From Myxococcales bacterium (GTDB lineage Bacteria > Myxococcota_A > UBA9042), in contig JAGSHB010000019.1 in assembly GCA_023954815.1 (NCBI GenBank), positions 1-54,166 of the forward strand: 54,166 bases of DNA, written 5' to 3'. The notes beneath the pieces were generated by a model, which ran no database searches, had not been told where the DNA came from, and was given only the letters and a program-made list of their open reading frames with translations. Below are positions 20,831 through 49,782 of the stretch, in pieces; positions within the stretch are counted from its first letter, which is position 1; the number at the start of each line of letters is the position of its first letter. The position numbers and the translations under genes are program-made.

Positions 20831-21252
20831 GTGGTGCCGCGGGGTGAATTCGGGGATTTCGGAAGGTCAAAAGGCCGCTGCGGGGGCAAGGATGGCCCTA
20901 GCGGGCGTTTGGTGGCTTGGAACGCATACTAAGTGGGGGCGGCGACCCATCGGCCCGTGGCTGGCCTCGTACGCGCACATCACCATCGCACTCCGAAGGT
21001 GTCGATGCCCGCCCACTGAGGCCCGCAGCCACAGACTTCAGCCCGGTACGCCCGGCTGGGAGCGCTACTAACAATCCCCAAAAGCAGACCACATCGATCC
21101 GAGTTTTCGACACGAAACACCACAGCTATTTTCATCTCTAACAACCAATTGCACTGTCCCGGTTCGTGCATGGTTGGTAGGCTGGTCCCACTCAAAGTGT
21201 CCAACTGGACCGGTGTGCCCGAAATCTGGGGCCGCCGTGTGTGGAGAGATTG
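20831..21252. other. Gene-free stretch before the giant lipoprotein gene
   Basis: This 422-base gap holds copy A of the ~95-bp direct repeat at 20865-20960. From there to the ATG at 21253 the sequence turns AT-richer around 21070-21150, where a promoter is likely. I found no hexamer pair good enough to name and no coding frame. Confidence 0.5.
20865..20960 (+). repeat. Direct repeat element, copy A (structured ~95-bp element)
   Basis: Starts GGTCAAAAGGCCGCTGCG and continues through AAGGATG, CTAGCGGGCGTTTG, GCATACTA and GTGGGG to CGGCGACC. Copy B at 29633 matches it closely in the same orientation (my hand alignment). The first half folds: outer helix CCGCT/AGCGG with flanking AAA/TTT pairing, inner helix GGGC/GCCC closing an AAGGATG loop. 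The inner helix of copy B is GGCC/GGCC, a compensating change. It lies 34 bases after the stop of the MuiA-like gene. Confidence 0.75.
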
Positions 21253-24200: not shown

Positions 24201-27200
24201 CGCCTGCACCAAGGACAGCTGCGATCCAAAGTCGGGCTGTTCGTCGGTGGCGCTGCCCAATGCCGTGAGCTGCTCCGATGGCGATCCGTGCACCAGCGGC
24301 GACGCCTGCGCTGGGGGCAAGTGCGCCGTGGGGCCGAAGAAGACCTGTGATGACGGTAATGTGTGCACCATCGATGCCTGCGACGACAAGAGCGGCAAGT
24401 GCAGCACCTCGCCGGCAAAGAAGGGCGCGCCTTGCGACGACGGGAACCTCTGCACGGCGAGTGGCTGTGACAGTGGCAAGTGCGTGGCGACGAGCACCAA
24501 GGCCTGCACCGACAGCAACAAATGCACCGCGGATGGCAAGTGCGATCCGAAGACCGGCGCGTGCTCGGTCGGCCAGACCAAGGCGTGTGATGACGGCGAC
24601 AAGTGCACGCTGGATCTGTGCGACCCGGCCAGCGGCGGCTGCGTGGCCTCGCCCATCGCGGGCTGCTCCGGGCCGTGCCTGTCGAACACGGACTGCGACG
24701 ACGGCAACCCGTGCACGTTGGGGACCTGCGACATCAAGACTGGCGACTGCAGCCACAAGCTCAGCGCCGAGCGCAAGGTCTGTGGCGAGGGGCTTGTGTG
24801 CGGCGCCAAAGCGACATGCGTGGCTGTGAGCAAGGGCTGGGCGCGGCGGATCTTCTCGAGTGACACCGCCTATCATTACTGCGCGATCACGTGGAACGGC
24901 CATGTCGCGTGCTGGGGCAGAAACAACGCCAAGCAGGTCGATGGCTCCGCTGCGGCCACAATCTCGCTACCCCGGTATTACCCGGGGTTGAGTGACGTGA
25001 CCAAGGTTGCGGTGTGCCCAAGTCACACCTGCGCGTTGACGAAAGCCGGCGAAGTGTGGTGCTGGGGCGACAATTATTACGGTCAGTCTCTACCCGGCAA
25101 GCCCAAGAGCGTGCCGCAGGTGCTCAAGCCGACCAAGACCTTGGCGTTTGGCAAGGCCAAGGACATCAGTTGCGGTACGGGCTTCACTTGCGTGGTGGGG
25201 ACGGACAGCAAGGTGCGCTGCGTTGGGTCGGGAACCAGCGGTCAGCTCGGCGATGGGCTCAGCCAGACGTCCACGTCCAGTACGCTGCGCGTCGTGAAGG
25301 GACTCTCCAAGGTGACGAAGGTGTTTTCAGCATACCAGAGGACGTGTGCCCTCGACGGTGGTGAGGTGTGGTGCTGGGGGCGCGGCGCCCGCTACACGAT
25401 CACGACCAACAGCTACTCCACGGTAGCGGCGCCCGTGCGGATCTCCACCCCGGTCAAGGTGGCGACTGAGCTAGGCGGCGGCCGCCATGTCAACTGCGTC
25501 GGCAACAAGAGCCAGTTCGGCTGTTGGGGGTACAACTCCGAGGGGCAGTTGGGGCTCGACAAGAAGTCCAGTGCGCAGGCAACTTGGGCGGCGCCGCTGG
25601 GAGTGACTGGCGTCCTACAGATGCTCGGAAGCAACACCGTGATGCTACTCGACCGGGCCGGTCGCTCATGGAGCGCGGGGAGCGGCAACTACACCTACGG
25701 CACGCTGATGCGCAAAGTGAACGACATCTACCGCTTCCAGCGGACCGAGGTCAGTGAGGTCGCCACGGACATCGCTACCAGTCGCTACGTGTCGTGCGTG
25801 CTCACAGCCGCCGGCCAGGTCTGGTGCGGCGGCAGAAACTCCTACGGTGAGCTCGGCACCGGCAAGATCAGCAACGGGTCGGTGAACAAGTCGCTGGTGC
25901 ATGGCCTCTGCTTGAATGATGCCATGTGTGATGACGGCCTGCCCTGCACGAAGGACGTCTGCGACACGGCCATCGCGCGTTGCACCTACGCCGTGCTCGA
26001 CAAGAAACCCTGTGACGACGGGCTCCCATGCACGACGGACGACGCGTGCGTGGCCAGCAAGTGCGTGGGCAAGGCGAAGGTCTGCGATGACCAGAACAAG
26101 TGCACCGTCGACTCCTGCGACTCGACCAGCGGCAAGTGTCTGACCAAGCCTGCCGTCGACTGCGATGACAAGAACAACTGCACCACCGATAGCTGCACAG
26201 CCGCGACCGGTGATTGCGCGCACAAAGTCATCGCTGGCTGCGTGCGCACGTGCGAATCCATCGCCGACTGTGATGACGGTTCGCCCTGCACCACAGACCT
26301 GTGCACGGACGGCAAGTGTAAGTGGGACGCGTCCTCATCCGAAGGCAACGTCTGCGTTGACGGCGTGTGCAACAAGGGCCAATGCGGGCCCCCAACCAAG
26401 GGCTGGGTCAAGCAGCTGGCTTCCTTCGGGGCTGGCTATCACTATTGCGCCCTGAGTCATCAGGGGCAGGTGTTCTGTTGGGGCACGACCAACTCAGATG
26501 GCCAACTCGGCAACGGCACGACGACGACGAGCAAGCAGCCCGTGCGTGTCTTTGGTCTAGAGAACATCACCTCTGTCGTCGTTGGTTCGAGATCGTCGTG
26601 TGCGCTCGACAAGGACAAGAAAGTCTGGTGCTGGGGGCGCAATAATTACGGCCAACTGGGAACAGGAGCAACCTCCGGCGATCAGACAAAGCCCGTCGCG
26701 GCCACGCAGCTTAGCGGCGCCGTGCAGATTGCCATGGGGCAGTACAATACGTGTGGGCGGTTCACGGACGGCACCGTGCGTTGCGTCGGCTATGGCTTCT
26801 TTTCCGGCTCCGGCTCCGGCGAGGTTACGGCCCTCAAAGCACACACGGTCAAGAACCTGACTGACGCGACCTGGGTGTCCCTCGGCAACAACTACGGTTG
26901 CGCCCGCTCCAAGTCCAACGGCACGGTTTGCTGGGGTCACAACTACGCCAAAGTGATCCCGGGTATCACATCGAATGTCGTCGTTGGAGCCACGGCCATC
27001 GTGGGCCTGTCTGGACCGCTCATGGAGGTGGGCTCTCACAATACCTGTTGGAAGAATGGCGCTGGTGCGTACTGCGTCGGCCAGGGCAACTACGGCCAGC
27101 TGGGCAAGTCCACCGGTACGAGCTCGATCGCCACTCCCGTCGCCGTCAAACTACCCGGCGCGGTCTTGCGCCGCTCGGGCAGCCGCTACCACCAGCTCAT

Positions 27201-29568
27201 GCTCGATGACACAGGGGACCTGTACGCGGCCGGCTATGGCAGCGGTCGTCGCTTTGGCACCACCGGCTACACCACCGCCTATTGGAAGAAGACGACGCCC
27301 GGCGGACCGGTGGCGTTGATCGCTGCGACGGATAATGCCAGCTGCGCCGTGCGGCTCGATGGCGTCTTGATGTGCACGGGAACCTACCTCACCGGCAGCG
27401 GCTGGAAGGCCCTGCAGGTTCCTTGCACGAAAGCCACAGACTGCAACGACGACAGCGTCTGCACGACCGATAGTTGCACCGGCGGGTATTGCGTGCATGG
27501 CGCCGCCGCGGGCTCTTGTGACGATGGCGAGGCCTGCACTACCGGCGACGCTTGTAGCAGCGGTGCGTGCGTCGGCAAGGCGACGACGGACAAGTGTGAC
27601 GACGGCGATATCTGCACCAGCGGCGACGTTTGTTCGGGCGGCAAGTGCACCGCCAAGCTAGCGGTCTGTTCCGACGGAGACGCTTGCACCACAGGCGACA
27701 CGTGCGTCGCGGTCAGCGGCAAGACTACCTGTCAAGCGACAGGGAAGAAGGCCTGCGATGACGGCAACCCCTGCACCGCCGATAGCTGTGATCCGAAGAC
27801 GGGCCAGTGCGGTATCAAACCCACGGACAACTGCGCGAAGAAGTGCACGCAGGCATCCGATTGCTTCGACGGCAACCCTTGTACGCTGGACGTTTGCACT
27901 CAGGCAGGCACCTGCAGCGTCACACTGTCTCAGGACGGTTTGGTCTGCGCCGAGGGGCGGAGCTGCTCGAGCGGCCTGTGCGCCAAGCCGAGCAAGGGCT
28001 GGGCGAGCGCGATCGCGTCGAATCCGAGCGCCTTCCACGTCTGTGCGCTATCACACGGCGGCGAGGTATACTGCTGGGGTCGCAACGAATATGGTCAGTT
28101 GGGGGACGGGACAAAGACCCAACGCAGTGTGCCGACGAAAGTTAAGGGCCTGACGAATGTGATCCAAGTGGCTGTGGGTACCTACCACACCTGCGCCAGA
28201 ACCAGCAGCTACGATGTCTACTGTTGGGGTCTCAACTATTATGGCGCACTCGGCACGGGCTACAGCGGTGGTTTTTCGTCTCCAGTCCTCACGCCGACCC
28301 TTGCCAAGGCGCTCGGAAAGACGGGGCGGCTCTCGCTGGGCAAATACTTTACCTGTGCCACGTACGGTGGTGGCACGGTCTACTGCCTTGGTGTGGGTTA
28401 CAACGGGCAGCTCGGTGACGGCTACAAAAAGGATAGCACGACCCCTAGAAAAGCCTACGGGCTCACCGGCGCTAGCCAGTTGACCTCTGGCGGTTACGGC
28501 TCCTGCGCCGCTACGGGCTCGGGCGTCAAGTGTTGGGGCCGCAACTATGGCAGGGCGCTGACGACCCACTCGGAGGGGGCCATCATCAGCTACCCCTGGG
28601 TACGCGGCGGCGCGACCTACCCTTCATCCATGTCGTTGGCCAGCACGACCTTCATCTGGGTGCGCAACGGCGTCGCATATGGCGTAGGCACACCGTCTCC
28701 ATACTATTGGCAGTTTGGTCAGGCGGGTGGGACGACCTATCAAGCCAAGGTGCACAAGCTGTTTGACAAGGACGTGAGGCTCGTCAGCGCGGGTAACACT
28801 ACGTCCGTCATGGTCGACAAGAATGGCGCGATATGGGGGTTGGGGAGCGCAGTCTATCTCGGCATCGGTCAGACCTCTGGCCACGCGAAGATCCCGACCA
28901 AAGCTCCCCTGCCGGTCGCGACCCTGCAGGTCGCGTCGAGCGCTGTCGTGACGTGCGCCCTGGGTGCCGATGGGCAGGTCCGTTGTGCCGGTAGATCCTA
29001 CCAGGGAGAGCTGGGCAACGGCGTCCTCAAGACCACCGCTGCAAACTTTGTGATGACCGCGGGACCGTGTCAGGACAAGTCGGACTGCAACGACAGCGAC
29101 GTCTGCACCGTCGATAGCTGCGAGAGCGGTCACTGCGCGTTCAAGGGCACCACCGGCGGCAGCTGCGATGACGGCGACCCGTGTACGCCAACCTCGGCCT
29201 GCGCAGCGGGTGTGTGCACCGGAAAGGTGCAGACCTGCTCGGATGACAACGCTTGCACCAAGGATGACGCCTGCTACGCCAAGGACGGAAAGGCGGCGTG
29301 TGCGGGCACGCCGAATGTGGTCTGCGATGACAAGAAGCCGTGCACGGCAGACAGCTGTGACCCGAAGACCGGCAAGTGCGTCTTCAAACCCATCGCTGGC
29401 TGCGCGATTGGCTGCACCACGGACACCGTGTGCAATGACGGCAACATCTGCACCAAGCCCGTCTGCAACCTGGTGACCGGCGGCTGCTCGTACAAGACGC
29501 CGCAGAACGAGGGCAAGTCGTGCGCGTCGGGTAAGGTCTGCAAGTCTGGGCAGTGTTTGGCGCCGTAG
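21253..29568 (+). CDS. Giant lipoprotein: CTDC-type Cys/Asp repeats alternating with three RCC1 propellers
   Basis: 2771 residues. The ATG at 21253 has GGAG six bases upstream; a GTG at 21241 is less likely. Lipobox FAAC-G at about residue 25, then an Asp/Ala-rich linker to ~115. CETCDGIDNNCDGVTDEG-type motif at ~306. About 31 Cys/Asp repeats of the form CDDxNxCTxDSC run to ~1190, resembling the Dictyostelium CTDC repeat. Then RCC1 propeller 1 (~1192-1550), 5 repeats, propeller 2 (~1714-2053), 6 repeats, propeller 3 (~2246-2600) and 5 repeats. Propeller units look like VYCWGRNEYGQLGDGT. Each propeller begins at a KGW boundary. Probably outer-membrane-anchored and extracellular, Ca2+- or disulfide-stabilised and adhesive or matrix-forming (inference). 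No enzyme motif was seen. Confidence 0.92.
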   Translation: MTRSLSWRALLCCLVAPVIFAACGDDPEIKTDGPAADVSVADAPLADQLDEDATPDTGIDPSDGTASDTVAADATVADGGESADVVADMDSAVGGDAADGASLDVAGSGDTASADGGPVAACPGAKGCGCKVDAECNSGACVLWTTGSRQCGTPCKSTGDCQSGQICSNGDNAVCVPAAIALCQPCVGDNECQVGAPDGVCIDGGAAGSFCGVSCSTDSDCPTGSKTVCKESKSLSGKSVKQCVPAKGESCSCSDYAMALSAKTTCFAPGLPGCAAVRQCLPAGAPGAPKGGGLGACTPQKSAKETCDGIDNNCDGVTDEGLDTLCDDNNPCTKGSCKGGKGCEQAQASGACDDSNACTKDDGCAVGLCQGVTVTCDDKEPCTTDSCSPKTGCVHKALTGGCDDGDACTEGDSCAKAKCTGTKKDCNDGNKCTTDSCDLATGCTATASTGPCDDDDSCTTDDACTGGLCTGKKKVCDDNNPCTTDSCDAKKGCVSAFAKGACSDDDACTDKDTCINGACAGQAKDCDDDNACTSDSCDKDTGCKVSYLTDACDDGSACTEKDTCDKGACTGKGLACDDNNPCTTDSCDKVKGCASVVHEKGCDDGDGCTESDVCKGGTCAGKAKDCDDDNACTADSCSDGVCLAKALTGTTCTDGDACTSGDTCSGAGTCGGKTISCEDGNTCTDDPCDPKTGCAAKKMTTKSCDDGSKCTTSDMCDGKGKCVGAALKCDDNKPCTTDSCDPEKGCVHANNTLPCNDGDSCTGGPGGFGDICESGVCKPGKSVCSCKSDADCAKQSSNLCLGKQTCNKGKCELVSGSGVTCKDDGDSCSLESCDPKTGKCVVASAKDGTSCDKDGTVCTQGDACKSGACTAGKKRDCDDNKPCTADVCHKLAGCLHNAQAGTCTDGNACTAKDACINGSCQGALVVCNDGKACTKDSCDKQKGCVTAALTGTTCDDGSACTEKDVCTAGVCKGGAAKSCDDSNACTKDSCDPKSGCSSVALPNAVSCSDGDPCTSGDACAGGKCAVGPKKTCDDGNVCTIDACDDKSGKCSTSPAKKGAPCDDGNLCTASGCDSGKCVATSTKACTDSNKCTADGKCDPKTGACSVGQTKACDDGDKCTLDLCDPASGGCVASPIAGCSGPCLSNTDCDDGNPCTLGTCDIKTGDCSHKLSAERKVCGEGLVCGAKATCVAVSKGWARRIFSSDTAYHYCAITWNGHVACWGRNNAKQVDGSAAATISLPRYYPGLSDVTKVAVCPSHTCALTKAGEVWCWGDNYYGQSLPGKPKSVPQVLKPTKTLAFGKAKDISCGTGFTCVVGTDSKVRCVGSGTSGQLGDGLSQTSTSSTLRVVKGLSKVTKVFSAYQRTCALDGGEVWCWGRGARYTITTNSYSTVAAPVRISTPVKVATELGGGRHVNCVGNKSQFGCWGYNSEGQLGLDKKSSAQATWAAPLGVTGVLQMLGSNTVMLLDRAGRSWSAGSGNYTYGTLMRKVNDIYRFQRTEVSEVATDIATSRYVSCVLTAAGQVWCGGRNSYGELGTGKISNGSVNKSLVHGLCLNDAMCDDGLPCTKDVCDTAIARCTYAVLDKKPCDDGLPCTTDDACVASKCVGKAKVCDDQNKCTVDSCDSTSGKCLTKPAVDCDDKNNCTTDSCTAATGDCAHKVIAGCVRTCESIADCDDGSPCTTDLCTDGKCKWDASSSEGNVCVDGVCNKGQCGPPTKGWVKQLASFGAGYHYCALSHQGQVFCWGTTNSDGQLGNGTTTTSKQPVRVFGLENITSVVVGSRSSCALDKDKKVWCWGRNNYGQLGTGATSGDQTKPVAATQLSGAVQIAMGQYNTCGRFTDGTVRCVGYGFFSGSGSGEVTALKAHTVKNLTDATWVSLGNNYGCARSKSNGTVCWGHNYAKVIPGITSNVVVGATAIVGLSGPLMEVGSHNTCWKNGAGAYCVGQGNYGQLGKSTGTSSIATPVAVKLPGAVLRRSGSRYHQLMLDDTGDLYAAGYGSGRRFGTTGYTTAYWKKTTPGGPVALIAATDNASCAVRLDGVLMCTGTYLTGSGWKALQVPCTKATDCNDDSVCTTDSCTGGYCVHGAAAGSCDDGEACTTGDACSSGACVGKATTDKCDDGDICTSGDVCSGGKCTAKLAVCSDGDACTTGDTCVAVSGKTTCQATGKKACDDGNPCTADSCDPKTGQCGIKPTDNCAKKCTQASDCFDGNPCTLDVCTQAGTCSVTLSQDGLVCAEGRSCSSGLCAKPSKGWASAIASNPSAFHVCALSHGGEVYCWGRNEYGQLGDGTKTQRSVPTKVKGLTNVIQVAVGTYHTCARTSSYDVYCWGLNYYGALGTGYSGGFSSPVLTPTLAKALGKTGRLSLGKYFTCATYGGGTVYCLGVGYNGQLGDGYKKDSTTPRKAYGLTGASQLTSGGYGSCAATGSGVKCWGRNYGRALTTHSEGAIISYPWVRGGATYPSSMSLASTTFIWVRNGVAYGVGTPSPYYWQFGQAGGTTYQAKVHKLFDKDVRLVSAGNTTSVMVDKNGAIWGLGSAVYLGIGQTSGHAKIPTKAPLPVATLQVASSAVVTCALGADGQVRCAGRSYQGELGNGVLKTTAANFVMTAGPCQDKSDCNDSDVCTVDSCESGHCAFKGTTGGSCDDGDPCTPTSACAAGVCTGKVQTCSDDNACTKDDACYAKDGKAACAGTPNVVCDDKKPCTADSCDPKTGKCVFKPIAGCAIGCTTDTVCNDGNICTKPVCNLVTGGCSYKTPQNEGKSCASGKVCKSGQCLAP

Positions 29569-33731: not shown

Positions 33732-34604
33732 TCAGCAGCAGCTCGACTTGGCCGGTTTGCGTGCCTCGATGGTGGCGGACAATACGTAGTCCTCGACACC
33801 ACTGCCCGGCGCCCAGTCGCTGATGAAGCTGCGCGATTCGTCCTTTGGGGCGATGCGGACATCGACGAACCCCGCCGCCGTGATGGCCGCGTCGAGGTCA
33901 GAGATCAGCGCAGCGTTGCCCATACAGCCGGCGATGAGCATCGGGTCGTCGCGCATCTCGGCGGGCAATTCGGTGGTGGCGACGACGTCGGAGATGGCGA
34001 GTCGACCGCCAGCCTTCAGCACACGAAACGCCTCCCGGAAGACCTGCGGCTTGTCCGGCGACAGGTTGATCACGCAGTTGGAGATGATCACGTCGACGGC
34101 GGAGTCGGCCACGGGAAGGTGCTCGATCTCGCCCAGTCGGAACTCGACTTGGCCGAATTGCCCCTTGTCCGCGTTGACGCGGGCCTTGGAGATCATGGCG
34201 GGCGTCATGTCGACCCCGATGACCTGACCGGACTCTCCGACTTCACCAGCCGCTAAGAAGCAGTCGAATCCGGCGCCAGAGCCTAGATCGACGACCGTTT
34301 CGCCAGCTTTGAGCGACGCGATGGCCTTGGGGTTGCCGCAGCCAAGACCGAGGTCTGCACCCGATGGGGCGGCGGCCATGTCGGCTGTGGAGTAGCCCAA
34401 TCGGCTGGAGACCAGGGTGTTGATCGCGCCGTCGTCACTCACGCCGCAACAGCTCTGGGCAGCGTCCGTGCCGAGGCCAGCGGTATCAGCTTCGGCGACC
34501 TGGGCGTAGGCGTCTCGTACCTGGGCTCTGAGGGCGTCGTTGTCGACCGCGGTTGGCGCGGCGGCAGTGTCGGGTGTCGATGGTCCGCAGCATTTAGTGG
34601 TCAT
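33732..34604 (-). CDS. arsM: Arsenite S-adenosylmethionine methyltransferase
   Basis: 290 residues, with AAGGAG nine bases before the ATG. SAM motif VVDLGSGAGFDCFLAAG (about 104-120), and the arsenite-binding Cys set: C53 within SCCGVSDDGAIN, C177 within ISNCVINL and C227 within LIAGCMGNA. N-terminal KCCGP and C-terminal SSCC add further Cys pairs, as in bacterial ArsM. It methylates As(III) to volatile or less toxic forms in the cytoplasm. Its start overlaps the arsR end by 11 bases, so it is in the arsR transcript and presumably induced by arsenite. Confidence 0.95.
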   Translation of the reverse strand: MTTKCCGPSTPDTAAAPTAVDNDALRAQVRDAYAQVAEADTAGLGTDAAQSCCGVSDDGAINTLVSSRLGYSTADMAAAPSGADLGLGCGNPKAIASLKAGETVVDLGSGAGFDCFLAAGEVGESGQVIGVDMTPAMISKARVNADKGQFGQVEFRLGEIEHLPVADSAVDVIISNCVINLSPDKPQVFREAFRVLKAGGRLAISDVVATTELPAEMRDDPMLIAGCMGNAALISDLDAAITAAGFVDVRIAPKDESRSFISDWAPGSGVEDYVLSATIEARKPAKSSCC

Positions 34605-34962
34605 GGCGATGGTCTCCTTGGGCTGGGTCGACGATTGGTGTGGCGTCGCTGAGCGGGGTGAGGAAGAAATGGGAGAGGTTCAACAGGACGTTGGGATCGA
34701 CCCAACACTCGACCTGCTTGCCGCGCCTAGCCGAGGCGATGAGGCCCGCTTGGCGCAAGACCTTCAGGTGGTGTGCGAGAGTCGATGGGGCGATGTCGAG
34801 CATCCCCGTGAGGTCGGCGATGCAGACCCGGGAGGACGCGTTCCACGTTGTCCCCGGCGCGCAGCAGGATGTGAGTCGCCGAAAGAGGGCCAGGCGATGG
34901 GGGTGGCCCAGGGCGGAGAAGGCTGCGGCGAGTTGTTCTGTTTCATTTCGATAATTCGACAT
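34594..34962 (-). CDS. arsR: ArsR-family repressor
   Basis: 122 residues from the ATG at 34962. The frame extends to 35034, but that longer start would lie upstream of the promoter. Winged helix: CIADLTGMLDIAPSTLAHHLKVLRQAGLI (about 47-75, described here as a region). Cys33-Cys34 and Cys47 are arranged like metalloid-sensing sites, with Cys86 further on. It should bind the 9-6-9 dyad covering its own start codon and -10 box and leave it on binding As(III). With the -10 ending seven bases before the ATG, the mRNA would be leaderless or nearly so. Confidence 0.93.
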   Translation of the reverse strand: MSNYRNETEQLAAAFSALGHPHRLALFRRLTSCCAPGTTWNASSRVCIADLTGMLDIAPSTLAHHLKVLRQAGLIASARRGKQVECWVDPNVLLNLSHFFLTPLSDATPIVDPAQGDHRHDH

Positions 34963-34974
34963 GTTTCGAATTAT
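34951..34974. promoter_or_regulatory. ArsR operator (perfect 9-6-9 dyad)
   Basis: ATAATTCGA-N6-TCGAATTAT is a perfect inverted repeat. It overlaps the -10 box of the arsR promoter and includes the arsR start codon. AT-rich dyads of this form over the promoter are typical ArsR/SmtB binding sites. Confidence 0.8.
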
Positions 34975-34997
34975 AGGATCGTATTCGTCGCCGTCAA
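34970..34997 (-). promoter_or_regulatory. Promoter of arsRM
   Basis: TTGACG (34997-34992), a 16-base spacer and a perfect TATAAT (34975-34970), read on the minus strand. The -10 ends seven bases upstream of the arsR ATG, implying a leaderless transcript. Confidence 0.8.
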
Positions 34998-35078
34998 GGG
35001 GACCCGCTTTGGGTCGAATCGGCTGTGTTTTCAATCTTTTTCCTAAAACCCAACAAACGAAAGGACTCCCAGTCTTCT

Positions 35079-35165
35079 GAGAAGTGCCAGGCGTTTCGCA
35101 GAGAAGTGCCAGGCGTTTCGCAGAGAAGTGTCAGGCGTTTCGCAGAAAGTGCCTGCCACTCTGCA
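35079..35165 (+). repeat. 22-bp tandem repeat, three near-perfect copies plus one degenerate
   Basis: Units at 35079, 35101 and 35123 read GAGAAGTGCCAGGCGTTTCGCA, shown here only by its start GAGAAGTG and end TTTCGCA, with a single C-to-T change in the third. A fourth, decayed 21-base copy ends at 35165 (GAAAGTG through CTCTGCA). A 22-base period is about two helical turns, so bound proteins would line up on one face. It lies about 130-215 bases upstream of the operon start. Confidence 0.85.
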
Positions 35166-35295: not shown

Positions 35296-37754
35296 ATGCC
35301 CGACGGAAATCAGCTTTCAAAAGACCACCGGGTCGGCAAATCGATCCCCCGCCCCGACGCCAAGGTCAAAGTCACCGGCGCGCTGCACTACGTCGACGAC
35401 CTGCCCTTCGAGGGACTGTACGGCGCCACGGTCCGCACAAAAACCGCCCGCGGCCGCATGACCGGCCTGCGTTTCAAGGACGGCGTCGACGTCGGCGTCG
35501 ACTGGCGTGAGTTCGCCGTCGTGACCGCCAACGACATCCCCCGCACCTCCAAGCTCGACGGCATCGACCCCAATCAGGTCATGCTCATCGACCGCGATCA
35601 GCCCTTCTTGGTGCGCGACGAGTTCCGCCACGTCGGCGAGCCGGTCTGCCTGCTCGCGCACCCCGATCCCGAGGTGCTCCGCCGCGCCGTAGACCTCGTC
35701 GAGATCAAGACCGAGTCCCTACCCGCCGTGCTCGATTACCGGCAGCCACCCACCGACGCTCAGGTGCAGCGCGGCGAGCCCGGTCCAGACGCCAACCTGT
35801 TCAAGCGCATCGTCGTCAGCAAAGGCGCCGCCGACGAGGGCGATGACGCCTTCAGCAAGGTCTTTGAGGACGCTGCACACATCGTCTCCGGTACCTACGA
35901 AACGCAAGCCCAAGAGCAGTGCTACATCGAACCCAATGGCATCATCGCCCGGGTCGAGGTCAGCGAGGCCGACGCGCAGGGCGCCCTCTGGCCGGCCAAT
36001 CCGTGGAAGCTGATCATCGAAGGCTCCATGCAGTGCCCCTATTACGTGCACAAGGCCATCACCCACCTCTTTCAACTGCCCGACGACGGCGTCCAGATCA
36101 TCCAGGCGGCCACCGGTGGCGGCTTTGGCGGCAAGGAGGACTATCCCTCCATCATCTCCGGCCACGCCGGGCTGCTCGCCCTGAAGACCCGCCAGCCCGT
36201 GAAGCTGATCTACGATCGCGTCGAGGACATGGCCTTTACCACCAAGCGTCACCCCAGCCGCACCCACCTCCGCGCGGCCCTCGATGCCGACGGCAAGCTG
36301 CTGGGCATCGACATGGACGTCACCCTGGACGGCGGCGCCTACCTGACGCTGTCTCCGGTGGTGCTATCCCGCGGTGCGATTCACGCTGTTGGGCCCTATC
36401 GCGTGCCCCACGTTCGTGTGCACAACCGTGCGGTGCTATCGAACACCCCGCCACACGGCGCTTTTCGTGGGTTTGGTGCGCCGCAGACGGTGTTTGCGTT
36501 CGAGCGCCATCTCGACCGTTGCGCGAGGGAGGTCGGCATCGATCCCGTCGAGCTGCGCCGGCGAAACCTCATCATCCGCGGCGACGCGTTGGCCATCAGT
36601 CAGCGTATCGACGAGCCCATCGAGCTGCACAAGTGGATGGACGAGGCCTTGACGGCAGGAAAGTACGAAGAGCGCCGAGCAGCCCACGCGGCCTTTAACG
36701 AAGCGGCCGAGACCAGCGGAAGCCCCTTGCGCCGGGGGGTTGGCGTCGCGACGTTCATGCACGGGGCCGGTTTTACGGGCTCTGGCGAGGACTATCTCGC
36801 TTCTGAAGTGATGATCCGGGCCGCTGTGGGAGCAGATGGGCTTGGCGGCGTTGAGGTCTGCACGGCCAACACCGAGATCGGCCAGGGTGCCATCACCATC
36901 TTCACCCAGATCGCCGCCGACGCGCTTGGGCTCCCGCTCTCAGCGGTGCAAATCGCGAAACCAGACACCGATCAGGTACCGAACTCGGGCCCCACCGTGG
37001 CGTCACGTACCTCCATGGTGGTGGGGCATCTCGTCGCGCGCGCCAGTGACGATCTCGTCCGCAAGCTGGAGAGCCAGGGCACGCTGAGCGACGGCGACCT
37101 GCACCCCAATCCCGACGATGACCGCGCCTCAGCCCTGTCCGACGCGCGCGGCCGCAAGTTTGAGCCCACAGCCCTCCGCGGCGCCTTGGCCACAGCGGCT
37201 GCGCAAGATGGCGGCGCGCTCGAAGGCTGGGCGACCTACCAGCGCCCGCCCGGCGGTAAGTGGAACGACGTCACCTACAAGGGCATCGCGTACGGCACGT
37301 ATGCTTGGGCGACCTACCTCGCCGACGTGGAGGTCGACCTGACGACCTTCGAGACGCGGATCACCGACTTCGTCGCCAGCCAGGAGATCGGTCGCGTGCT
37401 CAACCCGTTGCTCGCCGAAGGGCAGATCCAGGGCGGCGTGGTCCAGGCCATGGGCTGGGCCCTGCTCGAAGACACCGTCTACAAAGACGGCCGCATCACC
37501 AACCCCAACATGACCAACTACGTGGTGCCGACCTTCGCCGATGTGCCCGACGTGCAGGTCCTGTTCCAGGAGAGCCCGTACGCCTACGGCCCCTGGGGCG
37601 CCAAAGGTATCGGTGAGCTGCCCATGGACGGACCAGCGCCTGCCATCCTCAACGCCATCTCTGCTGCGGTCGGTGTCGAAATCGACGCCTTGCCTGCATC
37701 CCCCGAGCGCGTCATGCGTGCCGTGCTCGCCGCTCAATCCTCGGAGGTCTCCTC

Positions 37755-37758
<4 letters not shown>
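35296..37758 (+). CDS. Molybdenum hydroxylase large (Moco) subunit, xanthine dehydrogenase-like
   Basis: 820 residues from the ATG at 35296 (AGGTGG six bases upstream); a GTG at 35287 adds only three. N-terminal Ald_Xan_dh domain at about 10-130 and the Moco-binding domain after it. Motifs: GGGFGGKEDYPS near residue 274, GAFRGFGAPQ near 389 and GPWGAKGIGELP near 765, with the catalytic Glu in KGIGE. The family hydroxylates purines, aldehydes or N-heterocycles; sequence alone favours XDH-like but does not fix the substrate. First gene of a six-gene operon; overlaps the FeS subunit by four bases. Confidence 0.93.
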
Positions 37759-38258
<500 letters not shown>

Positions 38259-39020
38259 ATGAGCGCTCAGGTCGCCGCACCGAAGCCCCGCCGGAAGCTG
38301 CTCATCGCAGCTTTTGTGGTGCTGCTCGTGGGTACAGGGCTGGCCTACAAGCCCGCCACCTTGTACTGGGCGATCGCGCATCCCAAGGTGCAGAACCTGC
38401 CCTTGCCCGCTGAGCTGTGGGCGATGGAGGGTCCCAAAGGCAAGGCGCTGACGGAGCGCAATGCCGCCGGTACCGACCACAAGGCCTTGAAACCCGTCTT
38501 TCAGAGTCAGATCTACGGCAGCTACTGCGGCGTCGCCAGCGCGGTCATCGCCCTTGGCGCGCTGGGCCAGACAGGCGTCACACAGGCCACATTTTTCACC
38601 GACAAGACCGAGCCGATTCGCAGCGAAAAGGCCGTGTTTTACGGCGGAATGACCCTAGATGAGCTGGGCGGCTTGCTCAAAGCCCACGGCGCTGACGTTA
38701 CGGTGACCCACGCCGGCGACAGCACAGTCGATGCCTTTCGGCAGGCCGCGAAGGCCAACCTGCAGCGCACCGGGGACGTGCTGCTCGTGAACTACCTGCG
38801 CCGCGCCATCAGCCAGAAAAGCGGCGGCCATGTCTCACCGGTCAGCGCGTACGACGCCCAGACGGATCGCATGCTCGTGCTCGACGTCTCCACCTACAAA
38901 TATCCACCTGTCTGGGTGGGCACTGCGGCCTTGTTTGCCGCTATGAACACCACCGATAGCAGCGCCGACAAGACGCGCGGCTGGGTGCGGGTTCAGCTGC
39001 CCACCGCCGGTTCCAACTAA
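38259..39020 (+). CDS. Phytochelatin-synthase-like Cys peptidase, membrane-anchored
   Basis: 253 residues. The catalytic triad of the PF05023 family is intact: Cys90 in YGSYCGVASAV, His191 in SGGHVSPVSAY and Asp209 in VLDVSTYKYPPVWV. An N-terminal hydrophobic segment (RRKLLIAAFVVLLVGTGLAY, about 11-30) makes it a signal-anchored or periplasmic protein. Bacterial members cut the Gly from glutathione (gamma-glutamyl-Cys plus Gly) and generally do not polymerise phytochelatins. It is one-domain length, like cyanobacterial NsPCS. The odd point is its place: exactly between the FeS and FAD subunit genes of a Mo hydroxylase, with zero spacing upstream. Confidence 0.92.
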   Translation: MSAQVAAPKPRRKLLIAAFVVLLVGTGLAYKPATLYWAIAHPKVQNLPLPAELWAMEGPKGKALTERNAAGTDHKALKPVFQSQIYGSYCGVASAVIALGALGQTGVTQATFFTDKTEPIRSEKAVFYGGMTLDELGGLLKAHGADVTVTHAGDSTVDAFRQAAKANLQRTGDVLLVNYLRRAISQKSGGHVSPVSAYDAQTDRMLVLDVSTYKYPPVWVGTAALFAAMNTTDSSADKTRGWVRVQLPTAGSN

Positions 39021-39038: not shown

Positions 39039-39914
39039 ATGACCGCCATCGCCCATAGCGCCGTCAGTGTCCATCGCGCCCGGACCTTGCAAGATGCGCT
39101 CGATCAGCTGTCTCAGGCGCCGCTGCAGCTGCTCGCCGGCGGCACCGACATCATGGTCGAGGCCAACCATGGTGGGCTGCGCGGCCGTCACTTTCTCGAC
39201 ATCTCCGGTCTGGGTTCGGAGCTCGGCGGTCACAGCTGGCTGCCCGACGGCGCCCTGCGCATCGGCGCTTTGTGCACCTACGCGCAGCTGCAGGCCGACG
39301 CTCGCGCACAGGCTGAGCTGCCCATGCTGATGGCTGCGTCCAGACTTGTCGGCGCGACCCAGATCCAGTCCCGGGGCACCTATGCCGGCAACGTCGAAAA
39401 CGGCTCGCCGGCTGCCGATGCGGCGCCCGCACTACTGGCATTGGATGCCGTCGTTGAGCTGCGCAGTCTCGCTGGCACGCGCACGGTGCCCTTGGCCCAC
39501 TACTACACCGGCTACCGCAGCACAGCTCGTCGTTCCGATGAGCTCATCAGCGCTCTGATCGTGCCCAAACCCGACGGCGGGGTGAGCTGCCAGTTCTTCC
39601 GCAAGGTGGGCACGCGCGCCTTTCAGGCCATCACCAAGGTCGGGCTTAGCGCGCGGATCGTGTGGCAGGGCGGCCAGATCACCGACGCCCGCATCGTCGC
39701 GACCTCCATGGCGGCGACCATCTGCCGGGCCCATCACATCGAAAACGCCCTGCGTGGTCTCAGTGACATCGACGCAGCCGCCAAGTCTGCGCTCCGCCGT
39801 GCCCAGGACGCCGACTTGCGGCCGATGGATGATGTGCGTTCCAGCGCCGACTACCGGGCCGAGGTCTTTCACCGCCTCGTCCTGCAGGCAGCCAGCGAGA
39901 CCCGTCCTTCGTGA
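39039..39914 (+). CDS. Molybdenum hydroxylase FAD-binding subunit
   Basis: 291 residues. The FAD-binding PCMH-type motifs are LLAGGTDIMVE (about 32-42) and SRGTYAGNVENGSPAADAAPAL (about 112-135, AGN-xx-N/G-xP pattern), followed by the CO dehydrogenase flavoprotein C-terminal domain. It oxidises the reduced FeS subunit and hands electrons to NAD+ or another acceptor. An 18-base gap separates it from the PCS-like gene, and its stop overlaps the following GTG start by four bases. Confidence 0.92.
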   Translation: MTAIAHSAVSVHRARTLQDALDQLSQAPLQLLAGGTDIMVEANHGGLRGRHFLDISGLGSELGGHSWLPDGALRIGALCTYAQLQADARAQAELPMLMAASRLVGATQIQSRGTYAGNVENGSPAADAAPALLALDAVVELRSLAGTRTVPLAHYYTGYRSTARRSDELISALIVPKPDGGVSCQFFRKVGTRAFQAITKVGLSARIVWQGGQITDARIVATSMAATICRAHHIENALRGLSDIDAAAKSALRRAQDADLRPMDDVRSSADYRAEVFHRLVLQAASETRPS

Positions 39915-40927
39915 CCGGCGTATCCGCAGCTGCGGTGAGGATGGATCCTGACGGCGCTCAACTCGTCGCCAGCCTGCCGTCGCTCCTGCCCGCCGGTGCG
40001 CCGCCGGCGGCGCTGGTCACCGTGGTCGCTGCCCAAGGGTCGGCTCCGCGCGGTCCGGGTGCCCGGATGGTTGTGCGCGGCGGAAAGCTCCTCGCCGGCA
40101 CCATCGGCGGTGGCCATCTCGAGCAGCTCGCCACCGACGAAGCGAGCGATCTGCTAGCAAAGAGCCCGAATTTTCAGCCTGTGATGCGCGATTGGGCTTT
40201 GGGACCGGCGCTCGCCCAGTGCTGCGGCGGCCGTGTGGCGGTCCGACTTGAGCCCATCTCCTCCGCCTCCGCGCGGACCCTCACCCAGGCGCTCAACCTG
40301 GCGCAGTCCACAGATGGCTTGTTCCAGACGGGAGAGGGGCCGCACCTCCTCGTCGAGCGACCGGTGCTCCAGCCGAGCGTCGTCATTTTCGGTGCCGGTC
40401 ACGTCGCCCGCGCCCTCGCCCACGTGCTCGCCGTGCATCCCTGGCGCGTCGTGGTCGTCGATGAGCGTCCAGACTGGGCCGACCCAGGGGCCTTCTGTGT
40501 GGGCACCGAGGTCCGTGCCACGGCGCCGCTGGCCGCCCTGCAGCAGTGGGGTTGGCTGGGCGGCGACCAGCAGCCGACCCCTTCGCCCCCGCTGCTCAGT
40601 CAGAGCTTCGCTGTCATCATGACCCACGACCACGAGCTCGATCGGCAGATCGCCTGGGCGCTGCTTCGCCATGAGGCCGATCAGCACTTGCCCTATGTGG
40701 GCGTCATCGGCTCCAAGACCAAGATCGCCACCCTGCACAGGCGTCTGGCAGGTCAGGGCATCACCCCAGCGCAGCTGCAGCATCTGACAGCGCCGATAGG
40801 TCTCCTGCGGCCGGCAGCCAATGGCCAGCCCAGACCGATCGGCGGCAAGCGCCCGGGCGAAATAGCCACGTCGGTCGCGGCAGATTTGATGCTGCGCATC
40901 GCGACCTGGACGGAGGCGGCGCAGTGA
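39911..40927 (+). CDS. xdhC: XdhC/CoxI-family Moco sulfuration and insertion factor
   Basis: 338 residues from GTG 39911, which overlaps the FAD subunit stop. N-terminal XdhC/CoxI domain (VVAAQGSAPRGPGARMVV, then LLAGTIGGGHLEQLA, with CC in ALAQCCGGRVAV), then a Rossmann-like C-terminal domain (VVIFGAGHVARALAHVLA, then YVGVIGSKTKI). XdhC binds Moco, promotes its sulfuration and loads it into the large subunit. A Pro/Gln-rich insert (GGDQQPTPSPPLL) sits within the second domain. Confidence 0.93.
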   Translation: MTGVSAAAVRMDPDGAQLVASLPSLLPAGAPPAALVTVVAAQGSAPRGPGARMVVRGGKLLAGTIGGGHLEQLATDEASDLLAKSPNFQPVMRDWALGPALAQCCGGRVAVRLEPISSASARTLTQALNLAQSTDGLFQTGEGPHLLVERPVLQPSVVIFGAGHVARALAHVLAVHPWRVVVVDERPDWADPGAFCVGTEVRATAPLAALQQWGWLGGDQQPTPSPPLLSQSFAVIMTHDHELDRQIAWALLRHEADQHLPYVGVIGSKTKIATLHRRLAGQGITPAQLQHLTAPIGLLRPAANGQPRPIGGKRPGEIATSVAADLMLRIATWTEAAQ

Positions 40928-41580
40928 ATACGGGTCAGCCGACGCCGCACGCCAGTGCTCAGGCCACGCCGCCGCTCCGTGCGGCCACTGCGGTGGTCAT
41001 CGCTGGCGGTCACGGTCGTCGCGCTGGTGGCCCTAAAGCCTTGAAGATCCGGGATGGCGAGCTGATGTGGCGCTGGCAAGCTCGGCATCTACAAGCCCTC
41101 GGCTGCGCGCCCGTCGCCTGCGTGCTGCACCCAGCCGCGCTGCCCGAGATCTCCCCGAACTCATCTGACCAGACGCCGCTCATCGTCGTCCCAGCCGACC
41201 CGGATGCCGAGATGTTGGCGTCCCTGCAGGCGGGGCTCGCTGCCTTGCCGCCCGATCAGCCGGTGTTTGTGCTGCCCGTCGACTGTCCGTGCCCGCCGAG
41301 TGCGGTCTTCCATGCGCTCGCCGCACGGTCCAACGCCGCGGCCGCTGCGGAGCAAGATTGGCAGGTCATCCGCCCGTTCATTCACACCCCAGACGGGCCA
41401 CGGCGAGGGCATCCGGTGTTGCTCTCCCCCGGCTTTGTCAGGGAGATCGCTGCGGCCGACCCGGAGTCCGACCGTCTCGACCACCTCATCGCCAAGCTGC
41501 ACGAAACGCAGCGCCCAGACGTCGAGGTCACCAGCGACGCCATCGTCGCCAACCACAACTACGGCGGCCTCGCACGTTAG
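40924..41580 (+). CDS. MobA/MocA-like molybdenum cofactor nucleotidyltransferase
   Basis: 218 residues from GTG 40924 in a GTGA overlap with xdhC. The NTP-binding loop is VVIAGGHGRRAGGPKAL (about 24-40), followed by FVLPVDCPCPPSAVF, the metal-binding Asp region of NTP_transf_3 proteins. RGHPVLLSPGF is the MobA/MocA signature. It would attach CMP or GMP to Moco; which one cannot be told, although XDH-type enzymes in many bacteria use MCD, favouring a MocA role. The first loop is GGHGRR where LAAGxSxRMG is usual, a mild deviation. Last gene of the operon. Confidence 0.85.
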   Translation: MNTGQPTPHASAQATPPLRAATAVVIAGGHGRRAGGPKALKIRDGELMWRWQARHLQALGCAPVACVLHPAALPEISPNSSDQTPLIVVPADPDAEMLASLQAGLAALPPDQPVFVLPVDCPCPPSAVFHALAARSNAAAAAEQDWQVIRPFIHTPDGPRRGHPVLLSPGFVREIAAADPESDRLDHLIAKLHETQRPDVEVTSDAIVANHNYGGLAR

Positions 41581-41614: not shown

Positions 41615-42244
41615 CTATTCGGACGGCGTGATCGCGCTGAAGAAGCGAGCCTCGACCGCTGCAGGGCGGGCCATCAACGGGCCCAGGTAGTCGGCCACAT
41701 CAGCCAGTTCACACAGCCCACCGGAGATCGCCAGCCGCAGAGTGTACGCGGCCTGCATATCGGCCAGGGTGAAGCGACCGGCGACCAGGAAACCCGACTT
41801 GGGCAATTGCCCCAGCAGCACACCCACCCGCGAGCGAAGTCGCCGTTCGGAGAGCTCCGCCACAGCCGCCGGTAGCAGCCCCGCACGACTGATGACGAAT
41901 TCGACCAGTTTGCCTTCAAAAGTCTCAGCAAAGAGCGAGCACCACTGCAGATAAGCGGCGCGATCCGGCTCACCGGCCTCCACCACCAAACCCAACTCGC
42001 CCCGGTCCATCGCCGTGGTCTCAGCGATTAGCGTTAGGGTCGCGAAGGACTCGATCAGGGTATGGCCACGCCACAGCGTCGTCGGCACCATGCCGTACGG
42101 GTTGAGATCGGTGTACGGTGGCTTGCGATGAGCCCCCAAACCCAGCCGCTCCTCGGTGATGTCGATCCCAAGTTCATGAGCCAGCCACCTAATTTTGCCG
42201 CTGCGGTCATTGAGACCGAATCCGTAGAGGGTCAGTTGCGTCAT
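41615..42244 (-). CDS. Glutathione S-transferase-family protein
   Basis: 209 residues, with AGGAG five bases before the ATG. N-terminal thioredoxin-like domain (TLYGFGLNDRSGKIRWLAHELG, then NPYGMVPTTLWRGHTLIESFA with the cis-Pro and the ES glutathione-binding pair) and a helical C-terminal domain (FLVAGRFTLADMQAAYTL). Ser16 of NDRSGKIRW could be the catalytic residue of a theta- or beta-like enzyme (inference). Cytosolic. It converges on the Mo-hydroxylase operon with 34 bases between stops. Not evidently linked to the PCS-like gene. Confidence 0.88.
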   Translation of the reverse strand: MTQLTLYGFGLNDRSGKIRWLAHELGIDITEERLGLGAHRKPPYTDLNPYGMVPTTLWRGHTLIESFATLTLIAETTAMDRGELGLVVEAGEPDRAAYLQWCSLFAETFEGKLVEFVISRAGLLPAAVAELSERRLRSRVGVLLGQLPKSGFLVAGRFTLADMQAAYTLRLAISGGLCELADVADYLGPLMARPAAVEARFFSAITPSE

Positions 42245-42366: not shown

Positions 42367-43863
42367 ATGCGTCATCGGATCATCCTGCATAGCCGCAGCC
42401 AGCAGACTGGCCAGATTTCCGCTCGAAGGCCGCTAAATCATTCCAAACGACTCAGATCGGCTTGGCGACGACGACTTGTACCGATGGTGCTCTTGGCTTG
42501 GACGCTGACCCTTGGGATGGCGCCCTCGCCCGCGTTCGCTGGTCCCAAGACGATGAAGTTCGCCGATGGCGGCGTCTACAAAGGGGCGATCAAAGACGGG
42601 CAACGCCACGGCCAGGGCACGATGCGATGGGCCAATGGCGACCGCTACGACGGCATGTGGCAGCGCGGTAAAATGCACGGCCAGGGCAAGTTCATCATCC
42701 GCCGCGGTGGCAGCTACGAGGGCCAGTGGGTCCAGGACAATATGGACGGTAAGGGCAAGCGCATCTTCCGCAACGGCACGGTCTACGTCGGGCTCATGAA
42801 GGCCGATCAGCCCCACGGTCTCGGCAAGAAGATCTACAAGGACAAGCGCACGTGGCAGGGCATCTTCGTCGCTGGAAAACGGCGAGACGCCAAGGGCTGC
42901 GTGGCGACCTGGCCCAACGGTAGCGTCTACAAAGGCGGCTGGAATCGGTCTGGACCCCACGGCGACGGTCAGTGGAAGTGGAAAGACGGCTCGCACTACG
43001 TCGGCGCGTGGAAAAACGGCAAACGCGACGGCAAGGGCGCGTTCACTTGGAAAAATGGCACCCGCTACGTCGGTACGTTCAGCCGCGATCGGCTCACGGG
43101 CAAAGGTAAGAAACGCTTTCGGGACGGCACGGTCTACGAGGGGCCGGTGGTCGATGGACTCGCTCACGGCAAGGGCACCAAGACCTGGAAAGATGGCAAC
43201 ACCTACACCGGCGCCTTCGTGCGCGGCGAGCGTCACGGCAAGGGTTTCCAGCGTCTGAGCGACAAGAGCACGTACAGCGGCGATTTCGTGCGCGGGTCCA
43301 TGACAGGTCGTGCCGAGAAGGTGTGGGCCAACGGCGACCGGTTCAATGGCCAATGGAGAAAGGGCCAGATGGGCGGGCGGGGGACCTACACCTGGAAAAA
43401 CGGCGACACGTACACCGGCGCGTTCAGAAAAGGCGTGCCCACGGGCCGCGGAAAGAAGCAGTGGAAGGCCGGCGGCAGCTACGACGGGACCTGGAAAAAG
43501 GGTGAGCAAGACGGTCGTGGTCTACGCATTTGGCCGACAAAGCACCGCTACAAAGGCCAGTGGCGGGCCGGAAAAATGCACGGAAAGGGGAAATATACCT
43601 GGGCCGATGGCAGTTCCTACACCGGGGACTTCGCCAAGGGTCACAAGCGTGGCCGCGGCACCCACATCTTCAAGGGCGACGGTAAATACAAAGGCCAGTG
43701 GCAGAACGACCAGATGCACGGCAAGGGCGTGCGCACCTACAAAGACGGCTCTCGCCACGACGGGCAGTTTGTGCGCGGCGAGGTGCACGGTCCGGGGGTG
43801 TTGATCCACAAGGACGGTCGTCGGGAAAAAGGAACTTGGGCCCACGGTAAACGGGTGAAGTAG
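42367..43863 (+). CDS. Secreted MORN-repeat protein (about 18 repeats)
   Basis: 498 residues, with GGAGG four bases before the ATG. A basic N-region of about 35 residues precedes a signal sequence (VPMVLLAWTLTLGMAPSPAFA, cleavage near 60). The rest is an uninterrupted run of about 18 MORN repeats of ~23 residues with the pattern YxGxWxxGxxxGxGxxxxxxG. One repeat (GIFVAGKRRDAKGC) is irregular. MORN arrays form elongated beta sheets used for membrane or protein binding. With a Sec signal this one should act in the periplasm or outside the cell. The pilT-like gene follows after six bases, so the two are probably co-transcribed. Confidence 0.9.
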   Translation: MRHRIILHSRSQQTGQISARRPLNHSKRLRSAWRRRLVPMVLLAWTLTLGMAPSPAFAGPKTMKFADGGVYKGAIKDGQRHGQGTMRWANGDRYDGMWQRGKMHGQGKFIIRRGGSYEGQWVQDNMDGKGKRIFRNGTVYVGLMKADQPHGLGKKIYKDKRTWQGIFVAGKRRDAKGCVATWPNGSVYKGGWNRSGPHGDGQWKWKDGSHYVGAWKNGKRDGKGAFTWKNGTRYVGTFSRDRLTGKGKKRFRDGTVYEGPVVDGLAHGKGTKTWKDGNTYTGAFVRGERHGKGFQRLSDKSTYSGDFVRGSMTGRAEKVWANGDRFNGQWRKGQMGGRGTYTWKNGDTYTGAFRKGVPTGRGKKQWKAGGSYDGTWKKGEQDGRGLRIWPTKHRYKGQWRAGKMHGKGKYTWADGSSYTGDFAKGHKRGRGTHIFKGDGKYKGQWQNDQMHGKGVRTYKDGSRHDGQFVRGEVHGPGVLIHKDGRREKGTWAHGKRVK

Positions 43864-47905: not shown

Positions 47906-49693
47906 CTACGTCAGCGGCTTCACGCCTGCGATGGTGAGCACCGCATTGACGATGCCCATGAGGCCTTCGCCAGCGACCAATCCCGAAGCCAGCGCGAAGT
48001 TGAACTTGTCGACCGCGCTAGGGTTCACTTTGCGCCAGATCATCCACGCCAGCATGCCGTAGACCATGACCAGGCTGTAGTACGCCGGGATGATGAAGGC
48101 GATGCCCATGGCGAGGCCGCTCGGCACCCACTTGGCGATGGCCGGGATCTTGCGGAGCAGCGGTACCGCCATGCCAACCAGGGCCGCGCCGATGACCGCC
48201 TCGACGGCGTGGGGGGGCAACGCATCAAAGCCCTTGGCCAGCAGCTCAGCCATGGCCTTCCATGCAAAGGCCGCCGGCGCAGGCAGCTTCTCGCCACCGA
48301 TCTCGTAGCTGGTGGTGAACAGGGCGTAGACCGGCACCACGAAGAACACACCCGCGCAGATACCGGCGAGCTGAGCGAAGAACTGTTTGCGGGGCGAGGC
48401 GCCGAGCAGGTGGCCAGTCTTCAGGTCCTGCATCATGTCGCCGGCCTGGGACGCGCCCGCGCCGGTGATCGCCGCGGCCATGAGGTTGGTGCTCATGGCG
48501 CCGGGAGCGATACCGCCGTAGACCAGCTGGGTCACCTTACCCATACCGCCAATCGGGTTGATGTCCGTCTCACCGACCGAGCGCACGGCCACGATGGCGA
48601 GCACCGACGACAGCGCGATCGCGACCACCGTCATCAGCGGGTGAATGTCGAAGAGGTAAAAAGCGATGGTCGCCGTCAGCACGGAGCCAGCGGCTAGGCC
48701 ACCCATCCACCAGCTGTTGGGGATGTGGGAGTCATCCGCCGATCCGTCGCCGCCGGTCGTCTTCTTGGCCATGGTCAGCGCGCGGGCGAAGGTCTTCCAG
48801 CTCATCGCTAGGCTCATCAGCGCCTCGGAGACCATCAAGGCCACACCGGGCCAGAGCAACCAGCCACGGGCGCCGGTTTTGTAGGACATGATCTTGCCAG
48901 GCGCCCAGCCTTGCTCCAGCGCCATCGGCCCAAGACCGACCCAGGCGATCAGCGCGCCGAGGAGCAGCGATAGACACACGCGGGGGCCGATAAGGAAACC
49001 AGCGCCGAAGAGACTCGGTCCGAGGTAGAGCTTAAAGCCCCACGATGCGGCGAGGGTGATGGCGGCGACGTCGACCCATTTGTAGATCGGCGGTGACTCG
49101 AGCTGCGGCACAAAGTGCGACGTCAGGGTGAACAGACCGGCAGCCAAACCGGCGTAGATCAGCACTTTGGCCTTGGCGAGGGCTTCCCCGGCGTCTGAGA
49201 ACATGGCCAAGATCGTCTCGGCGGTAGCGGTGCCGGTAGGAAAGCGCAGCTTCTCCTCGACCACCATCTGACGGCGCAGCGGCACGGCGAAAAACACACC
49301 CAGAAAGGCGACAGCCAGGGACCAGAGCACGAGGCCGGTCCACGAGATCTTGTAGCCCAGCAGGTTCATCGCGGGGATGGCCGCCACCAACCCTGCAGCC
49401 GAAGCCATGGAGCCCGCAGCGGAGCCGGCGGTCTGGGTGATGTTGGTCTCCAGCACGCTGAGGTGCTTGCCCATGAGGCGGAACACCGCGAAGCCGAGCA
49501 CCGCGCTGACGATAGATGCACCAAAGGTCCAGCCGATCTTCAACCCGATGTAGATGTTGGTGCAGGCGACCACGCTACCGACCAAGCAGCCGACGATGAT
49601 CGCGCGGGCGGTGAGCTGTTTTTCACCTGGCTTAGGGAAGTACTTCTGGTCGCTCTCTGGTTGCGTTTCGAGCTGAACTGGCGCGTCGGACAT
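47906..49693 (-). CDS. OPT-family oligopeptide transporter
   Basis: 595 residues from ATG 49693; a TTG at 49711 is the alternative. About 14 membrane helices. The family features ARAIIVGCLVGSVVACTNIYIGLKIGWTFG, the ITQTAGSAAGSMASAAGLVA segment, PTGTATAETI and the MMQDLKTGHLLGASPRKQF loop (given as regions) are present. OPT proteins are proton-coupled importers of peptides, glutathione or metal chelates. The charged N-terminus of about 25 residues is cytosolic. Located downstream of a surface lipoprotein on the same strand, 89 bases apart. Confidence 0.9.
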   Translation of the reverse strand: MSDAPVQLETQPESDQKYFPKPGEKQLTARAIIVGCLVGSVVACTNIYIGLKIGWTFGASIVSAVLGFAVFRLMGKHLSVLETNITQTAGSAAGSMASAAGLVAAIPAMNLLGYKISWTGLVLWSLAVAFLGVFFAVPLRRQMVVEEKLRFPTGTATAETILAMFSDAGEALAKAKVLIYAGLAAGLFTLTSHFVPQLESPPIYKWVDVAAITLAASWGFKLYLGPSLFGAGFLIGPRVCLSLLLGALIAWVGLGPMALEQGWAPGKIMSYKTGARGWLLWPGVALMVSEALMSLAMSWKTFARALTMAKKTTGGDGSADDSHIPNSWWMGGLAAGSVLTATIAFYLFDIHPLMTVVAIALSSVLAIVAVRSVGETDINPIGGMGKVTQLVYGGIAPGAMSTNLMAAAITGAGASQAGDMMQDLKTGHLLGASPRKQFFAQLAGICAGVFFVVPVYALFTTSYEIGGEKLPAPAAFAWKAMAELLAKGFDALPPHAVEAVIGAALVGMAVPLLRKIPAIAKWVPSGLAMGIAFIIPAYYSLVMVYGMLAWMIWRKVNPSAVDKFNFALASGLVAGEGLMGIVNAVLTIAGVKPLT

Positions 49694-49782
49694 GCTGTTT
49701 ACTGGCTCCAAAAAAGGGGGCGTGCGGCGGCAGAGTGCGTTGTAAAGCCGGGCAGTTCAAGTGGGGGGCGAGCGGTCAAAGG

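Follow-up and report, generated by a model that had tools for sequence, protein, structure and literature searches.

Little is known of the physiology of bacterial phytochelatin-synthase-like (PCS-like) enzymes. The reference protein is alr0975 (NsPCS) of Nostoc sp. PCC 7120 (PDB 2btw, 2bu3 and 6tho), a half-size enzyme made of the catalytic domain alone, which deglycylates glutathione (GSH) at a high rate and synthesizes PC2 weakly, and in which Gln64, Arg173, Lys206 and Tyr207 line a second substrate cavity (PMC3855540). Eukaryotic enzymes such as AtPCS1 have an N-terminal catalytic domain followed by a C-terminal regulatory domain. Two further systems are relevant here, namely periplasmic glutathione salvage with gamma-glutamyltransferase (GGT), and the three-subunit bacterial xanthine dehydrogenase operons, in which genes for the molybdopterin-binding (MoL), [2Fe-2S] (FeS) and FAD subunits are followed by those for XdhC and a MobA/MocA-like nucleotidyltransferase.

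We analysed a stretch of 54,166 nucleotides from a Myxococcales bacterium (contig JAGSHB010000019.1, hereafter the window), in which a PCS-like gene lies between the FeS and FAD genes of such an operon. Comparison of genomes shows a real insertion, genus-wide and of single origin, of a gene that probably encodes an exported glutathione deglycylase into a xanthine dehydrogenase operon. A genus in which a PCS is fixed in a metabolic operon offers a testable clue to when extracytoplasmic cutting of glutathione is wanted. The locus further shows cleanly how a gene can land at the tight junction of two subunit genes of one enzyme and be retained with the junctions unbroken.

The PCS-like protein and its active site

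The open reading frame at 38259–39020 (+ strand) encodes a 253-aa PCS-like protein (PF05023, alr0975 type), annotated from Pfam, the alr0975 structures and its triad as a membrane-anchored cysteine peptidase and predicted glutathione or glutathione-conjugate deglycylase. A whole-genome profile search found this single PF05023 gene, with a match over residues 45–242 at an E-value of 4.6e-48 (163.7 bits against a curated cut-off of 24.9). In a sequence search the closest solved structures were those of alr0975 (E 3e-47), and because of this match the alr0975-type fold is regarded as fixed. Cys90, His191 and Asp209 (codons at 38526–38528, 38829–38831 and 38883–38885, all +) align to the alr0975 catalytic triad, as the preliminary description had claimed in calling the triad and its motifs intact; its coordinates, frame and neighbours were likewise exact. 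Moreover, Gln84, Arg181, Lys214 and Tyr215, the counterparts of the four cavity residues of NsPCS, are all retained, and triad and substrate-site residues are unbroken in the PCS of all four genomes of the genus (G000, which is this genome, and G001–G003).

Like NsPCS, the window protein is half-size and belongs to the same PCS branch as cyanobacterial proteins bearing signal peptides, but it is ∼12 residues shorter past the Cys helix, it has a membrane anchor where NsPCS has a likely cleaved signal peptide, and its gene is embedded in a xanthine dehydrogenase operon. With eukaryotic PCS it shares the N-terminal catalytic domain and the active-site residues, but the C-terminal regulatory domain is absent, as the protein stops at the catalytic domain; moreover, it is predicted to be exported, and phytochelatin synthesis is not expected to dominate. 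Elsewhere in the alignment, two PCS-family proteins (loci L012 and L013, genomes G099 and G087) show the catalytic Cys replaced by G or S and a conserved Arg replaced by G, and are possibly inactive or repurposed.

The N-terminal anchor and the predicted location

Residues 14–32 (38298–38354, +) form a hydrophobic segment preceded by KPRRK, with a maximal 19-residue hydropathy of 1.89 and four K/R and no D/E before it. From hydropathy and charge we infer a signal anchor with the C-terminus outside the cytoplasm, and the catalytic domain is thus predicted to face outward, in agreement with the membrane anchor proposed earlier. A hydrophobic stretch behind positive charges is found in this genome, G002 and G003, and the PCS of G001 has a shorter stretch ending in LGAGC, which is lipobox-like. 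Among related proteins, those of G070 and Nostoc 210A have anchors, and cyanobacterial types have signal-peptide-like N-termini that end before QTLPL. Because relatives carry signal peptides or membrane anchors, the anchor can be taken as a family trait, and what the preliminary description found puzzling is ordinary in this branch.

This location bears on an idea raised in the same description, that sulfuration of the molybdenum cofactor draws on a thiol made by the PCS, or that the PCS guards metal sites. Although the gene sits in the same tight one-strand run as FeS, FAD and XdhC, its catalytic domain is predicted to lie outside the cytoplasm, export-type N-termini were not seen in the xanthine dehydrogenase subunits on inspection by eye, and orthologous operons of sister genera have XdhC but no PCS, an outcome that the preliminary description had itself named as refuting its idea. 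We therefore regard such a role as extremely improbable.

The xanthine dehydrogenase operon

Profile searches identified all three subunits of a molybdenum enzyme: MoL (35296–37758), FeS (37755–38258) and FAD (39039–39914), followed by an XdhC-type maturation factor (39911–40927) and, by profile matches, a MobA/MocA-like nucleotidyltransferase of Moco maturation (40924–41580), all on the + strand. The start of MoL is most likely the ATG at 35296 (MPDG..., conserved in G002 and G003) and not the GTG at 35287 of the open reading frame list. The gene order and the conserved purine-binding residues are those of the three-subunit operons described above, from which the window differs in having the PCS-like gene between FeS and FAD and in subunits whose scores do not reach the equivalog cut-offs that NCBIfam sets for xanthine dehydrogenase subunits with a name. 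The best models for the subunits are nevertheless xanthine dehydrogenase models (best pucD, 447.5 against 783.65 bits), and the sole NCBIfam model above its cut-off in the operon is that of the XdhC accessory protein, TIGR02964.

The motifs GGGFGGKE, AFRGFG and G(I/V/L)GE(L/I)P (the last with GIGELP among its forms) are present in all 20 MoL orthologues aligned. At the first two sites, the MoL paralogue encoded in another part of this genome reads GGAFGGKS and PKRGHG. We take the three motifs to contain the equivalents of bovine Glu802, Arg880 and Glu1261 (E802, R880, E1261), respectively. The roles of these bovine residues are taken from PMC3624778. In the PCS-less relative G004, genes for the urate oxidase PuuD, the allantoinase AllB and an allantoicase lie beside the orthologous operon on the opposite strand. 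Because of the active-site residues and this gene context in relatives, we name the window enzyme a xanthine dehydrogenase specifically, as distinct from a CoxL type, an assignment made from sequence comparison. A genome search did not find PuuD in this genome; it did not find allantoicase either, in a search that missed the control genomes too.

The PCS gene is tightly packed between its neighbours. The FeS stop codon TAG (38256–38258) directly abuts the PCS ATG (38259), and 18 bases separate the PCS stop codon TAA (39018–39020) from the FAD ATG (39039), this being the only junction of the operon in the window that is neither an abutment nor a 4-base overlap. In G002, FeS and PCS share GTGA and PCS and FAD share ATGA; GTGA is also shared at the FeS/PCS junction of G003 and at the PCS/FAD junction of G001. 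That four species have such one-strand runs, with genes that abut or overlap, argues for the earlier claim that the PCS is co-expressed with the molybdenum enzyme, and the tight PCS junctions are probably translationally coupled.

Distribution and origin of the insertion

The order MoL-FeS-PCS-FAD-XdhC is present in all four genomes of the genus. Because three other genomes have the same order, the arrangement is neither chance nor an assembly artefact. In a survey of 185 relatives, the 18 further genomes of the same family all lacked PCS, and in 13 of 14 loci of PCS-less relatives the FAD start overlaps the FeS stop or lies at most 7 bases from it, the gap in G149 being longer. Hence the operon before the insertion would have been without PCS, with FeS joined directly to FAD. 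As a separate arrangement, in a sister genus (g8) MoL lies apart from an FeS-FAD-XdhC trio without PCS (L055–L058 and L027 versus L159–L163).

The four PCS of the genus form one clade (100/97), and so do the four MoL (100/100), with the MoL of the PCS-less G009 as sister (98/96); the two trees disagree on the branching order within the genus. The two clades together with the PCS-less relatives point to a gene inserted once, between FeS and FAD, in the ancestor of the genus. Closest to the PCS clade in the tree are PCS from other families of the phylum, along with a Nostoc type that has an anchor, and because the placing forks have 85–86% bootstrap, the donor is not fixed. A viral or phage origin was rejected, as no PCS relative occurs in the viral contigs or phage records.

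In the same phylum 33 other PCS-bearing genomes were found, the loci of 28 of which were examined, and 29 of 292 cyanobacterial genomes have a PCS match; Pseudomonadota loci were sampled from plasmid records only. No relatives of MoL, FeS, FAD or XdhC were found by tblastn near the PCS in ∼57 other PCS-bearing genomes (flanks mostly 1.5 kb on each side). Exact peptide patterns, an approach limited to close relatives, gave four loci among 84,980 species genomes, with the arrangement only in L002, the same contig as G002. No paper on a PCS/xanthine dehydrogenase operon was found in the literature searched, which covers few subscription journals. Thus the gene order, whose recurrence the preliminary description had suggested surveying, extends beyond this genome to the whole genus but does not recur in the other lineages sampled, and orthologous operons of sister genera lack PCS. 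A general link between glutathione and xanthine dehydrogenase is not supported by the survey.

Because close relatives run the operon without PCS, the protein would accompany the enzyme through co-expression, as passenger or partner, without belonging to it, and a direct role in the molybdenum enzyme is unlikely. We consider it fairly probable that an exported, anchored deglycylase was inserted once, in the genus ancestor, and is linked to xanthine dehydrogenase by shared expression alone. Another account is that the gene landed by chance and was kept for a working promoter and the FeS/FAD coupling, its glutathione turnover being unrelated to purines. Such a neutral or regulatory history agrees with a single event in one genus, with the absence of recurrence elsewhere, with sister-genus operons that run without PCS, and with the other PCS genes of the phylum, which sit outside molybdenum operons; however, the active site is intact and the slot and tight junctions are the same in all four species, down to 51% PCS identity. 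Hence we treat it as a tentative alternative, clearly less likely than the linkage by shared expression.

Selection on the PCS

Amino acid identity among the four genomes is 51–63% for PCS, 66–75% for FAD and 73–85% for FeS, and that of MoL goes down to 73%. For the three pairs less saturated in dS, NG86 dN/dS is ∼0.4 for PCS, 0.21–0.31 for FAD and 0.13–0.18 for FeS. The PCS is constrained, though less than the xanthine dehydrogenase subunits. Because active site, slot and tight junctions are kept in all four species, the PCS itself is under purifying selection. Since it changes more quickly than the adjoining genes, it may have shifted in substrate.

Glutathione context and the proposed role

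This genome has a candidate GCS2-type glutamate-cysteine ligase (GshA), a glutathione synthase GshB that passes its equivalog cut-off, and a GGT gene on a different contig from the PCS, a set by which glutathione would be both synthesized and degraded. Under shared expression of an exported deglycylase with xanthine dehydrogenase, the half-size alr0975-type PCS, facing the periplasm, would remove glycine from glutathione or its conjugates, and the GGT would then free cysteine and glutamate. Its gene would have been inserted exactly at the FeS|FAD junction with the tight junctions preserved, and the protein would have no part in catalysis or maturation of the dehydrogenase. As the reason for shared expression we infer, most plausibly, joint scavenging of organic N and S, from purines and from glutathione, or a common response to redox or metal stress. 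Counting against the purine side of scavenging is that the searches of this genome turned up neither PuuD nor allantoicase. A more specific scheme, in which PCS and GGT trim glutathione-conjugated N-heterocycles outside the cytoplasm and the heterocycle is imported and hydroxylated by the molybdenum enzyme, seems to us very unlikely; if true, the PCS family would for the first time be tied in function to enzymes of the xanthine dehydrogenase kind.

As in periplasmic glutathione salvage, a GGT gene is present in this genome, and in Pantoea a PCS adjoins ggt; the difference is that here the PCS belongs to the xdh operon, with ggt on another contig. The Pantoea case is plasmid pJZ29-01 (L086, 4294–7524), where dsbB-like, distant PCS-family and ggt genes stand in a row that is likely a periplasmic glutathione-breakdown cluster.

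Divergent from the operon lie genes for an ArsR-family regulator (34594–35034, −; same arrangement in G003 only) and, outside the operon, an ArsM-like arsenite methyltransferase (33732–34604, −), for which the matches are methyltransferase domains only and the ArsM name comes from the G003 neighbour. It might be supposed that gamma-Glu-Cys or short phytochelatins produced by the PCS bind As or Cd, and that the PCS is expressed with ArsR/ArsM via the shared intergenic region; phytochelatins are described as handling As(III) and Cd (PMC9917255). However, the divergent arsR/arsM pair is found in two of the four species, this genome and G003, and G001 and G002 keep the PCS without adjoining arsR/arsM; the intergenic regions of this genome and G003 are poorly conserved; and the half-size type makes PC2 weakly (PMC3855540). 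We hold metal(loid) defence to be unlikely and reject a conserved ars linkage of the PCS, arsenic being at most a secondary context of the operon. For shared expression of the exported deglycylase with the dehydrogenase, the ArsR/ArsM pairing in two of four species permits the stress reading as readily as scavenging.

Other features of the window and of further PCS loci

Two genes downstream of the operon were rejected as partners: in neither G001 nor G003 does the operon have the GST-like gene (41615–42244) beside it, the contig of G002 stopping short of that point, and an OPT oligopeptide transporter gene (47906–49711) is not in the G003 flank examined. In G001, modABC-like genes lie downstream of the operon. 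Between arsR and the xdh operon of the window, a 22-bp tandem repeat of 3.5 copies, GAGAAGTGCCAGGCGTTTCGCA, occupies 35079–35153 and is not evident in the G003 region. The window also encodes a 2775-residue protein with RCC1-like and Dictyostelium-type (Dicty_CTDC) repeats (21241–29568) and, at 42367–43863, a protein with MORN repeats, after which come a type II/IV secretion-type ATPase and a DUF350 membrane protein. Finally, a plasmid of Salipiger sp. CCB-MM3 (L084, 6444–9521) provides another case of a PCS inside a redox operon, one unrelated to that of the window. There, a PCS-family gene overlaps genes for a cytochrome c and for the small subunit of a sugar dehydrogenase, a GMC oxidoreductase gene follows, and the operon also has a multicopper oxidase.
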